A stretch of 64,000 nt of DNA, taken from the NCBI GenBank assembly GCA_001281695.1, contig LJIE01000001.1:2618586-2682585 (forward strand), given 5' to 3'. Positions 2,329 through 4,289 of the stretch are shown here, piece by piece (positions within the stretch are counted from its first letter, which is position 1; each line of letters starts with the position of its first letter). A program made the translations under genes and the position numbers. The notes under the pieces were generated by a model. It ran no database searches and was not told the DNA's origin. It saw nothing but the letters and a program-made list of their open reading frames with translations. The DNA is from a bacterium 336/3 (GTDB lineage Bacteria > Bacteroidota > Bacteroidia > Cytophagales > Thermonemataceae).

Positions 2329-2495
2329 GAGAAGCTGTTTTTCTAAATTAATTTAAAAGTTGCAAATAAGTGAATTTCCTTTAAAAGCAAAATTTATCTA
2401 TTCTAGAATACTTTTTAATTTTTTTTAAAATATTTTTAACTACGCAAATACATTACGCATTACTGTATTTGCTTTGTATCATCAAAGAAAATTTG

Positions 2496-2622
2496 AGTGT
2501 CGTTAAAAAGAGTTACTTCGCAGCCATAAACAGGGGAGGAATGGCATGGCAACCTACATATTGCGAAGCCATCAGGTTCGAATCCTGCATGCAAGCCCCG
2601 ATTTCTCTTTTGCTTTTTACCT
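2496..2622 (+). ncRNA. Structured RNA unit 1 with T-arm-like hairpin
   Basis: First of three tandem related units. The head (2496-2520) starts AGTGTCGT and ends TTACTTCG. The tail (2605-2622) ends TTACCT. The ends pair in two helices: 2496-2500 with 2619-2622 (A-T, G-C, bulged T2498, G-C, T-A) and 2506-2512 with 2605-2611 (7 bp). Inside, CTTCGCA (2516-2522) pairs with TGCGAAG (2562-2568). A T-arm-like hairpin follows: stem 2573-2576 with 2584-2587 and the canonical loop TTCGAAT at 2577-2583. No anticodon arm can be drawn, so it is not a tRNA gene. Strand is assigned from the T-loop orientation. Transcription is not proven. Confidence 0.55.
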
Positions 2623-2634
2623 CATAGTTTTCTT

Positions 2635-2680
2635 GAAGGAGTTTGGAAGAAAGTAGGTTCGAGCCCTGCCTCCTACACCA
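2635..2680 (+). ncRNA. Acceptor/T-arm minihelix ending in CCA
   Basis: The segment folds as the top half of a tRNA. GAAGGAG (2635-2641) pairs with CTCCTAC (2670-2676) at six of seven positions. GTAGG (2653-2657) pairs with CCTGC (2665-2669) around the loop TTCGAGC (2658-2664). An unpaired A and then CCA follow at 2677-2680. An 11-nt linker (2642-2652) stands where the D and anticodon arms would be. It lies between structured RNA units 1 and 2. It could be a tRNA mimic, a decayed tRNA, or a tRNA 3' end left behind by an integrating element. The sequence alone does not decide between these. Confidence 0.5.
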
Positions 2681-2683
2681 AAG

Positions 2684-2743
2684 AGTGCCGTAGAATAGAG
2701 TTACTTCGTCTTAAAAATAACAGTCTCTTTTCGTTTATTGCCT
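2684..2743 (+). ncRNA. Structured RNA unit 2 (short form)
   Basis: Shortest member of the family, 60 nt, with head 2684-2708 and tail 2725-2743 but no T-arm hairpin inside. The outer helix keeps its bulged T2686 and shows a compensatory change: C2688-G2740 replaces the T-A pair of units 1 and 3. The inner helix 2693-2700 with 2725-2732 pairs at seven of eight positions, with one T-T mismatch. It follows the CCA-ended minihelix by 3 nt, so that minihelix may belong to it functionally. It could also be a deletion derivative of a longer unit. Confidence 0.45.
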
Positions 2744-2770
2744 CTTTTATTAAAAAATTAAGACATAAAC

Positions 2771-2910
2771 AGTGTCGTAGAAAAGTCTTACTTCGTTCCA
2801 AACCTTGAGAAGCAGGTGCAAATCCTGCCCCTCCGCCTATGGAGTGGTCGTCTATAAAAGTAAGATACAAGGAGCAGCAATGCCCATAGTTGACTTTTCG
2901 TTTGTTACCT
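2771..2910 (+). ncRNA. Structured RNA unit 3 with T-arm-like hairpin
   Basis: Third unit, 140 nt. Its head (2771-2795) matches the other two heads at 19 of 25 positions common to all three, and its tail is 2892-2910. The outer helix has the same bulged T (2773). The inner helix GAAAAGTC (2780-2787) with GACTTTTC (2892-2899) is a perfect 8 bp. Two of its pairs are swapped relative to units 1 and 2 (T-A for A-T, C-G for G-C), so pairing rather than sequence is conserved. Inside are a T-arm-like hairpin (GCAGG 2812-2816, loop TGCAAAT, CCTGC 2824-2828), a CTCC/GGAG hairpin at 2831-2844, and TTACTT (2788-2793) complementary to AAGTAA (2858-2863). Confidence 0.55.
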
Positions 2911-3065: not shown

Positions 3066-3488
3066 ATGATACAAGAATTAGTAAAACAATGGGAAGAAAA
3101 TAAGTTAAAACTTGAAGAGTATTTCAGAACTACAAAGCAAGGAGAGTACTCAACAAGCTATCAGCAAATAGTTACAAAAGTGTTTGAATTATGTTTGCCA
3201 AAAGCAGATGAACATAGTGGCTTTGATTTAAGTAAAATGACTGTTATTGATGATGGACATTACCAAGGTACACAGATATTCATCATACCAAGAGTCACTT
3301 ATCAGCCAAGCATAGGAGATTATGTGATGACAAACACTTATTATGGTAGCTGTTCAGGTTGCGATACTCTTCAAGCCATTTGGAATTATGAAGATGGCTT
3401 ACCAACAGAGGAACAAGTTAAGCAGTATATGACCCTTGCTTTACACTTGGTGCAGAAACTTAAATGGCTTGGTGAGGGTGAGTATTAA
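3066..3488 (+). CDS. Hypothetical protein beside the RNA cluster
   Basis: A 140-aa cytosolic protein of no family I can name with confidence. The N-terminal 30 residues are charged and helical (IQELVKQWEENKLKLEEYF). The centre (about 65-110) is beta-rich and holds a notable Tyr-Gly-Ser-Cys-Ser-Gly-Cys-Asp run near 95-102; such a closely spaced cysteine pair is often conserved for structure or metal binding. The C-terminal 30 residues are again helical. It has no signal peptide or membrane segment. It lies 155 bp downstream of the third structured RNA on the same strand and is followed by a strong terminator, so it is monocistronic. A functional link to the RNAs is a guess from position. Confidence 0.7.
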   Translation: MIQELVKQWEENKLKLEEYFRTTKQGEYSTSYQQIVTKVFELCLPKADEHSGFDLSKMTVIDDGHYQGTQIFIIPRVTYQPSIGDYVMTNTYYGSCSGCDTLQAIWNYEDGLPTEEQVKQYMTLALHLVQKLKWLGEGEY

Positions 3489-3525
3489 CTATCAAGTTTA
3501 ATCAAAAAAACATTGAAATTTAGCA

Positions 3526-3547
3526 AAAAGGGGCAAATGCCCCTTTT
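3526..3547. terminator. Bidirectional terminator
   Basis: A 9-bp stem AAAAGGGGC / GCCCCTTTT with loop AAAT, flanked by an A-run on one side and a T-run on the other. It sits between the convergent genes ending at 3488 and 3546 and can serve both. Confidence 0.8.
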
Positions 3548-4289
3548 AATTTTTAGGCATCTCTCCCACCTTCATAAAAATAGGAAAAGTAACTTCGAAG
3601 CTTTCCTTTTGGGCAATTGCCTGTTTGAGTTCATTTTCAATGGCTTGTACAGGGTTCTTGCCATTTTGTTTTTCGTAATGTTTTACAGCAGACCATGTAT
3701 TTAGATAGCCTATCAAATACTCTAAATTCCAAAGTATTTTTTTTTCAAAATTAAATACTTGAGCTTTCTTGAATGGAAAAGGTATATTTTGATAAGCATC
3801 ATCTATGTGTTTGCGTTCGGCATCCCAGTATTTTCCGATTTGGTTATAGTAAAAATCATCTATTATTTTATCTAACTCTGGAAATGTTCTGATAAGTCCG
3901 TAGCCCCACATCGCAAAAACACCATTTTTTTTGAGTATTCTATCAATTTCTGTATAAAAAGACTCAAAATCGAACCAATGAACAGCTTGAGCCACCACAA
4001 TCAAATCGAAGGTGTTGTTTTCAAAATTTGTTTTCTCGGCAGACTGAACTGAATATTCTATTTTTTCGTTGGGTTGGGCTTGTTTTATTTGCTCATTGCT
4101 GATATCTGTGGCATACACTTTTTCAAAATATTTGGCTAATTGTTCTGCTACCTGCCCGTTGCCTGTACCTACATCCAAAGCAAGTTTTTTATTTGAAATA
4201 TGAGCCAAAAGTGCATCAAAAAGCTCTTGAGGATATGTAGGTCTGTATTTGGCGTACAAATCGGAACCTGTAGAAAAATTATCTTTCAT
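3546..4289 (-). CDS. Class I SAM-dependent methyltransferase
   Basis: A 247-aa cytosolic methyltransferase. It shows the Rossmann motif I LALDVGTGNGQVAEQL around residues 37-52, an acidic motif II near YATDIS, and the motif IV region FDLIVVAQAVHWFD near 95-108. The opening TGSDLYAKYRPTYP resembles the trans-aconitate/TMT1-like branch of the Methyltransf_11 group, but the substrate cannot be read from sequence. The gene lies 6 bp downstream of the histidine kinase gene on the same strand, so the two are probably co-transcribed. Confidence 0.82.
   Translation of the reverse strand: MKDNFSTGSDLYAKYRPTYPQELFDALLAHISNKKLALDVGTGNGQVAEQLAKYFEKVYATDISNEQIKQAQPNEKIEYSVQSAEKTNFENNTFDLIVVAQAVHWFDFESFYTEIDRILKKNGVFAMWGYGLIRTFPELDKIIDDFYYNQIGKYWDAERKHIDDAYQNIPFPFKKAQVFNFEKKILWNLEYLIGYLNTWSAVKHYEKQNGKNPVQAIENELKQAIAQKESFEVTFPIFMKVGEMPKN

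Follow-up and report, generated by a model that had tools for sequence, protein, structure and literature searches.

Three tandem units in the window

The window, by which is meant the whole stretch of 64,000 nucleotides that was analysed (C1:2618586-2682585 of the 4.71-Mb genome of bacterium 336/3), harbours a cluster of three tandem repeat units, W1, W2 and W3 (Table 1). Their 25-nt heads are identical at exactly 19 positions when counted on the sequence (repeat family D1), in agreement with an earlier note on this DNA, and the head pattern, allowing at most two mismatches, occurs three times in the window against 0.07 occurrences by chance. Head and tail pair in each unit, as had been claimed, into an outer helix with one bulged T followed by an inner helix of 7-8 bp. 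The three compensatory pair changes that had been described are all real: T-A is replaced by C-G in W2, and A-T by T-A and G-C by C-G in W3. The outer helix is three pairs longer than had been drawn in W2 and W3, with a partial extension in W1, and the unit limits were therefore refined to those of Table 1; the number of units stands as first given, the boundaries do not. The single-sequence folding energy of the three units showed nothing unusual (z -0.35, -1.24 and -1.68).

Table 1 Features of the window cluster and of related loci in the same genome. Positions refer to the window unless a locus is named; Y RNA assignments are predictions
Feature	Position	Strand	Basis or remark
Y RNA unit W1, class B (GGGGAGGAATRGC module, T-arm-like hairpin 2573-2587)	2492..2626	+	R1 87.6 bits (training sequence)
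Y RNA unit W2, short class, loop with CTTAAAA	2680..2747	+	R1 71.9 bits (training sequence); heptamer match
Y RNA unit W3, permuted tRNA-like module, anticodon-type loop	2767..2914	+	R1 96.6 bits (training sequence); permuted anatomy
W3 anticodon-type loop TTCCAAA: CCA in anticodon position, U33, A37	2796..2802	+	
W3 anticodon-stem 3' strand CCTTG, variable AGAA, T arm GCAGG-TGCAAAT-CCTGC	2803..2828	+	
W3 closed acceptor hairpin: 6/7 pairs, 4-nt loop	2829..2846	+	
W3 D-arm-like hairpin (loop without GG), then CAAGG pairing with CCTTG	2850..2872	+	
Partial tRNA between W1 and W2: T arm, acceptor 3' strand, discriminator, CCA	2653..2680	+	Sequence; direct repeat D2
Upstream element AAATACATTACGCA	2446..2459	+	Inside imperfect inverted repeat 2439-2477
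Ro60 gene (TROVE + vWA) of this genome	L005:806-2323		Six units upstream among tRNA genes
Nine tRNA genes interleaved with Y RNAs	L005:2384-5284 (own genome C1)		
AlkB-like oxygenase (PF13532) and R2K ATP-grasp (PF18299)	L005:2601-3188 and 3173-3919		Between Y/tRNA array and Ro60
Lone tenth Y RNA unit with D-arm-like stretch	L077:5308-5494 (own contig C2)		Preceded by element common to window cluster

The T-arm-like hairpins that the earlier note had seen in W1 and W3 are both present (Table 1). It had also stated that an anticodon arm is absent. This does not hold for W3, which has a 7-nt anticodon-type loop on the equivalent of a 5-bp stem (CAAGG/CCTTG), while W1 contains a different conserved module. 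The W3 loop is identical to none of 99 library anticodon loops. An assignment of W3 as a permuted tRNA-Trp was rejected, as only the triplet in the anticodon position fits and the best library match with the anticodon masked is not Trp. The heptamer of W2 is of the Leu(UAA) anticodon-loop type. The class B module of W1 has members in Flavobacterium, Bacteroides sp. 51, Prevotella, Pedobacter, Emticicia and others, and an alignment of 21 class B sequences across loci showed changes on both sides in 23 of the 35 predicted pairs. A 3-bp pseudoknot is a candidate feature of this class, and an Rfam match of W1 to U6atac was dropped (14.5 bits versus a cut-off of 33, E 0.89). With a permuted, a class B and a short unit, the window cluster therefore represents three recurring classes, each of them once.

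The partial tRNA that precedes W2 has its last base in common with this unit; likewise, a whole tRNA-Asp gene precedes unit Ya in the main array described below. ARAGORN predicted no tRNA genes in the window, and no complete cloverleaf with a free acceptor end was found in the units. Elsewhere in the genome the upstream-element pattern has a single exact match, ahead of the tenth unit on contig C2; the pattern was derived from these same two sites. A sigma-70 promoter scan gave nothing telling.

The Ro60 locus of the same genome

Neither a TROVE nor an RtcB gene lies in the window, as had been noted, and a search of the whole genome, proposed at that time, revealed that both are present: the only matches are located at C1:3343459-3344190 and C1:3164249-3165340. 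The first lead to the Ro60 locus came from a genome search with the window cluster, which gave three weak matches near C1:3346-3347 kb. Six further units with this head and tail are found in the region, interspersed with nine tRNA genes (Asp, Lys, Ser, Tyr, Arg, Gln, Phe, Met and His). Beyond the last unit and tRNA-His lies a gene encoding a 505-aa protein with a TROVE domain (PF05731, E 8.6e-33) and a Ro60 vWA domain (PF25045). The distance from the Ro60 locus to the window cluster is 0.72 Mb, and RtcB is found about 0.18 Mb from Ro60.

Five of the six array units begin at most 3 nt from a tRNA 3' end, one of them overlapping it by a base; the sixth is separated from tRNA-Met by 1.3 kb, on the far side of the AlkB-like and R2K genes, and closely precedes tRNA-His. 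Relatives of the latter two genes were found beside Ro60 in none of 80 fetched flanks (tblastn, E 1e-8; best 80 of 478 loci), which rules them out as general Ro60 neighbours. Every one of the nine array tRNAs has a counterpart elsewhere in the genome, encoded by a different gene with an identical anticodon, and the divergent extra copies in the array are a possible reserve tRNA set. By the rules used, units Yc and Ye and the C2 unit have no T arm, and Ya and Yd no matching anticodon stem. The genome also contains two further divergent tRNA arrays, L190 (C2:110726-111241) and L195 (C1:1003282-1003749), one with six Leu tRNAs and the other with six mixed tRNAs by Rfam and five by ARAGORN, as well as a tRNA with a CTA anticodon (L207, C4:25872-25944).

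Covariation and distribution of the family

Alignment of nine units of this genome showed changes on both sides in 12 of 19 pairs; 94.7% of the cells in the alignment pair, compared to 77.7% after shuffling and 42-53% with slid partners. These nine units were used to build a covariance model, R1, which they consequently match by construction; the model also detected the tenth unit on contig C2 with 38.4 bits. A covariance-model search, one of the checks that the earlier note had suggested, identified homologous units with matching covariation in other genomes. Positions 3-6 of the outer helix pair in 97.7-99.7% of 392 distinct end pairs versus 46-80% after shuffling, with many base-pair types, and the two outermost positions pair less frequently (86% and 94% of the 392 distinct units). 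T7, C10, G11 and T12 are nearly invariant over the 392 distinct units and the helices covary. As in bacterial Y RNAs, the ends of the family form a bulged helix in which certain positions are conserved. The 392-unit set also includes units from loci of this genome and of relatives, identical units being counted once where units are called distinct. Unit L081:1-124, cut by a contig end, is included among the 361 units below and left out of the structure counts; L063, L072 and L075 are the same contigs as L082, L083 and L080.

Presence of the units coincides with that of Ro60. Among 39 relatives, R1 matched in 11 (E<1e-4) and TROVE was found in the same 11; in the other 28 no R1 match was better than E 0.036, with weak matches in eight. 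In a sample of 198 genomes of the class, 13 gave an R1 match (E<=1e-3, stricter filters), and these same 13 contain TROVE. The genomes without TROVE (28 of 39 and 185 of 198) thus yielded no strong R1 match, in two sets that share at least G000, G019 and G036. In G114 some 26 kb separate the units from TROVE, and in G004 two units are found on a contig other than those with the TROVE genes, beside tRNAs and RtcB.

A scan with the Ro60 protein gave 478 relatives, of which the best 80 form the named Ro60 set; by their titles 78 of these best 80 contigs are from Bacteroidota and two are MAGs titled Limnohabitans (L125) and Williamsia (L133). R1 (E<=0.01) matched 361 units in these best 80 of 478 loci, with matches in all 80, one to nine units per locus and at least two units in 76. 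Within this set 350 of the 361 units are located at most 2 kb from the Ro60 gene and 360 are on its strand (distances were taken from a common gene end for loci with match start 6001, with an error of up to ~30 nt). RtcB was encountered inside the fetched flanks of 37 of the best 80 of 478 loci, some of the flanks being short. Encoding together with a Ro60/TROVE gene, as in bacterial Y RNAs, is therefore a property of the family and not of the three window units, because these lie 0.72 Mb from Ro60.

R1 (E<=0.1) also matched 12 of 80 IMG/VR stretches that hold the head pattern (L228, with up to eight units, L269, L273, L252, L284, L278 and others), which are either phage-borne or host DNA. In the second Ro60 locus of genome G031 a Y unit lies beside a tRNA with a CTA anticodon, called tRNA-Pyl by ARAGORN (L073:7209-7588).

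tRNA-like modules

A T arm was found in 243 of 303 distinct units of at least 90 nt (3.6 per shuffle set) and was absent from the other 60. In 168 of the 303 an acceptor hairpin follows directly 3' of the T arm (0.4 per shuffle set), and 118 contain the full permuted module of T arm, acceptor hairpin and D arm (0.0 per shuffle set). The controls for these counts keep dinucleotides. These counts supersede a first, loose test of the permuted module (151 of 302 versus 200 of 1510 shuffles), the strict form of which gave 80 of 302 versus 0 of 1510. Of the best 80 of 478 loci, 72 have a T-arm unit by the rule used and 63 also the acceptor hairpin; the remaining eight, some of them short contigs, have no T-arm unit by this rule. 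At least one unit with a tRNA-like module per species is a feature of bacterial Y RNAs, and these 72 loci agree with it.

Tandem tRNA genes were considered as the source of the permuted modules. Of 147 loops, however, only 4 have a discriminator and CCA after the 3' strand of the acceptor, and such an origin is therefore not general. Separate classes in which a D arm (10 units) or a variable region (3 units) is grafted are not claimed, because these counts mix in units with a split anticodon stem or hairpins of the Y tail. In two units, L082:3375-3488 and L080:4700-4812, the tRNA body is in native order (D, anticodon and T arms), and in the former ACTTCG of the head can pair with CGAAGT as an acceptor stem. 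ARAGORN tRNA calls overlap Y units in L064, L082, L083, L091, L094, L124, L133 and L155; seven of these calls are in the named loci (best 80 of 478), and L064 has two more. Y units are a likely source of wrong tRNA annotation.

The anticodon loop and the split anticodon stem

The distance between head and T arm peaks at 16-19 nt, a value shown by 111 of 241 T-arm units of at least 95 nt. Counted back from the T arm with tRNA spacing, nucleotide 33 is U (T in the DNA) in 88 of these 111 (background 0.29, p 1e-27) and nucleotide 37 is a purine in 97 (background 0.49, p 3e-17). A full 5-bp anticodon stem is formed in 71 of 122 units with T arm, acceptor hairpin and D arm, which is less telling without the U33 and purine-37 condition (30.8 in linker shuffles); with this condition the split stem is retained in 57 of the 122, from 47 loci, compared to 4.75 in linker shuffles. 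The 5' strand of this stem is provided in part by the strand after the D arm and in part by the Y head (TTCG and the next base or two). The point of the split differs between units, with 1 to 5 pairs contributed by the D-arm side, and the 3' strand is altered accordingly. Among 38 hairpins to which the head contributes, the strand after the D arm forms pair 27-43 in 30 and pair 28-42 in 35 (shuffles 16 and 19). The retained anticodon loop and the sharing of the anticodon stem between Y head and tRNA body are new details.

Short units, which have no tRNA body, display an anticodon-type hairpin beside the head in 39 of 100 (shuffles 5.3), and W2 is not among these 39 because its stem beside the head is shorter than 3 bp. 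A heptamer identical to one of the 99 library anticodon loops occurs in 35 of the 100 short units (shuffles 7.9, reversed loops 12). The exact-heptamer test is weaker for long units, with a high background (50 of 303 versus 31 for reversed and 17.8 for shuffled loops), and the tests for a hairpin only are weak when U33 and purine 37 are not required (76 long units versus 35.9 in shuffles; 64 of 100 short units versus 33.5). The controls of the split-stem, hairpin and heptamer tests shuffle single linker bases and do not keep dinucleotides.

The triplets in the anticodon position correspond to Lys (15), Asn (7), Pro (7), Leu (6), Gln (4) and others. When the de-permuted bodies were compared with 218 tRNAs, anticodon masked, the best match was of the same isotype in 9 of 57 (4.9 expected by shuffling, p ~0.03). 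In view of this weak agreement the anticodons of the units may be remnants or may have been swapped.

ARAGORN tRNA genes are found within 400 nt of units in 16 of the best 80 of 478 loci, 68 genes in total. Lys(UUU) is present in 13 of 18 arrays (these 16 loci together with L005 and L065). Lys-UUU is a frequent nuclease target. Anticodons with U35 account for 41 of 85 array tRNAs versus 12 of 53 elsewhere in the genome of 336/3 (p 0.004), or 31 of 68 for the named loci only (p 0.013), a bias that is a lead only because one genome serves as background.

Interpretation

The three window units are almost certainly bacterial Y RNAs. The earlier note had proposed a Y-RNA-like or a new tRNA-mimic family, and it is the former that is supported by the covariation, by the array beside Ro60 and by the coincidence with TROVE genome by genome. 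A repeat that had been without annotation is thereby placed in a large RNA family, one that Rfam 15 leaves unannotated in the window and 11 related loci, and hundreds of Y RNAs are recognised next to Ro60 in Bacteroidota. It is very probable that these Y RNAs, predicted to be bound by the Ro60 of this genome, each carry an exchangeable module with tRNA-like elements. Ro60, with its TROVE and vWA domains, would bind the bulged terminal helix formed by the ends GTGYCGTA...TTACTTCG and the tail, and the exchangeable module lies between these constant ends. W3 is a circularly permuted tRNA mimic, which the Y helix enters at the anticodon arm and in which T arm, loop-closed acceptor stem, D arm and anticodon stem and loop follow in this order. 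W1 represents the second conserved class, with a T-arm hairpin, and W2 a minimal form with an anticodon-type loop. We infer that the units are transcribed and bound by Ro60.

A Ro60 ring holding tRNA-like elements would recruit, gate or bait tRNA-binding enzymes. Candidate partners are nucleases such as PNPase, modification enzymes and tRNA-damaging nucleases. That tRNA enzymes dock on Ro60 through the Y RNA modules appears somewhat more plausible than that they do not. A specific role of the Y RNAs as bait or decoy is suggested only tentatively. Marginally more speculative is the idea that Ro60 in Bacteroidota holds a panel of Y RNAs, each showing the anticodon stem-loop of a different tRNA type, in the permuted class on a body that could not be charged. 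Such a panel would serve as standing bait for anticodon nucleases or as a sensor of them, and in some genomes it is encoded alongside spare tRNA genes. Through the retained anticodon loop, a connection of Ro60 and its Y RNAs to tRNA-cleaving enzymes becomes testable, and Y RNAs that carry pieces of tRNA may bear on the way in which bacteria sense or survive tRNA damage.

Among the alternatives, the one that survives best, though improbable, is that the window units are a relic second array, of true Y RNA descent, which lost expression or function by separation from Ro60. The distance of 0.72 Mb, the adjoining partial tRNA and the lack of an orthologous cluster found for comparison are in line with such decay. 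In all three units, nevertheless, the near-invariant terminal-helix positions are retained, and each unit represents a different one of three recurring classes; the upstream element is common to the cluster and the lone C2 unit, and G004, too, has two units off its TROVE contigs, beside tRNAs and RtcB. It is very unlikely that the units form a new tRNA-mimic family that acts without Ro60 and is linked to it by operon convenience. Some units are indeed located far from Ro60 and the modules vary widely between constant ends; however, genomes without TROVE gave no strong model match in either of the overlapping sets, and constant, paired and bulged ends are the feature bound by Ro60 in known Y RNAs (PMC4726728, PMC8394870). 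Slightly less credible again is a main role as spacers in tRNA arrays, helping to process the tRNA transcript: the close junctions of five of the six array units with tRNA 3' ends would fit this, but 64 of the best 80 of 478 loci have no ARAGORN tRNA gene within 400 nt of the units. Finally, debris of decayed tRNA genes with ends that pair by chance, which the partial tRNA with CCA between W1 and W2, the T-arm sequences in W1 and W3 and the absence of an ARAGORN tRNA from the window might suggest, can practically be dismissed for the units themselves, contradicted as it is by bulge and loop positions that are nearly invariant over 392 units with covarying helices, by the both-side changes in 23 of 35 class B pairs (21 sequences) and by the coincidence of the units with Ro60, even if the partial tRNA does exist.

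Comparison with known systems

The Y RNA reading places the window cluster in a known type of RNA. Bacterial Y RNAs and their tRNA mimicry are already known; Chen reportedly found them in 2014 near Ro60 in more than 250 species, with at least one unit per species said to contain a tRNA-like module. The ends of Y RNAs pair into a stem that binds Ro60, the constant, paired and bulged ends being what Ro60 proteins bind, and bacterial Y RNAs add a tRNA-like domain (PMC4726728, PMC8394870). Putative Y RNAs together with Rsr have also been described in a Listeria phage (PMC12282133), and further background is given in PMC9569102, PMC9176250 and PMC7824862. A treatment of anticodon retention or of Y RNA/tRNA arrays in Bacteroidota was not recognised in the full-text literature searched, a weak indication as this includes few subscription journals.

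Comparison with Rfam, also proposed in the earlier note, showed that the YrlA model (RF02553) does match units, all below its gathering score. Three L080 units scored 40.0, 36.7 and 35.7 bits (E 6e-7 to 1.1e-5), two of them with the model covered over its full length (E ~1e-5), and scores in the genome of 336/3 were 23.6 and 23.5 bits. The gathering cut-off of 69 bits was not reached in the window or in 11 loci, and no vertebrate Y RNA family of Rfam was found at gathering in these sequences either. In the 11 loci only tRNA was called at gathering, with three of the calls (29 to 31 bits) inside Y units.

Transfer RNA and tmRNA share the T-loop, D-arm and anticodon-loop signatures with the units. 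The permuted modules differ from both in their closed acceptor end, without a free CCA end, and a permuted-class body would not be chargeable because this end is closed. D. radiodurans has a Y RNA tied to Ro60 that serves as scaffold and gate for PNPase (RYPER; PMC4726728); a PNPase role in Bacteroidota is hypothetical.

Salmonella YrlA (RF02553; PDB 6CU1) likewise combines paired ends for Rsr with a tRNA-like domain of D, T and acceptor arms (PMC8394870), in the form of a circularly permuted tRNA module (PMC11472068). In the consensus structure of its family YrlA has only D, T and acceptor arms and no anticodon arm, unlike the Bacteroidota units, of which 57 of 122 permuted ones keep anticodon stem and loop. 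Permuted units that fail the split-stem test may fit the YrlA layout. The loci differ from that of YrlA as well, with two or more units in 76 and tRNA genes between or beside the units in 16 of the best 80 of 478. The Salmonella rsr-yrlBA-rtcBA operon resembles the 37 of the best 80 of 478 loci with Ro60, Y RNAs and RtcB in one neighbourhood, and differs from the genome of 336/3, where RtcB lies ~0.18 Mb off and the neighbours are the AlkB-like oxygenase and the R2K ATP-grasp protein. The Y RNAs of Salmonella are encoded in an RNA-repair operon that is induced by cut tRNAs, and no YrlA fragments were detected there; the authors suggest that YrlA could be a competitive inhibitor of the anticodon nuclease (PMC7790460). 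By analogy, units that keep the anticodon loop would be better suited than YrlA to a role as nuclease inhibitor.
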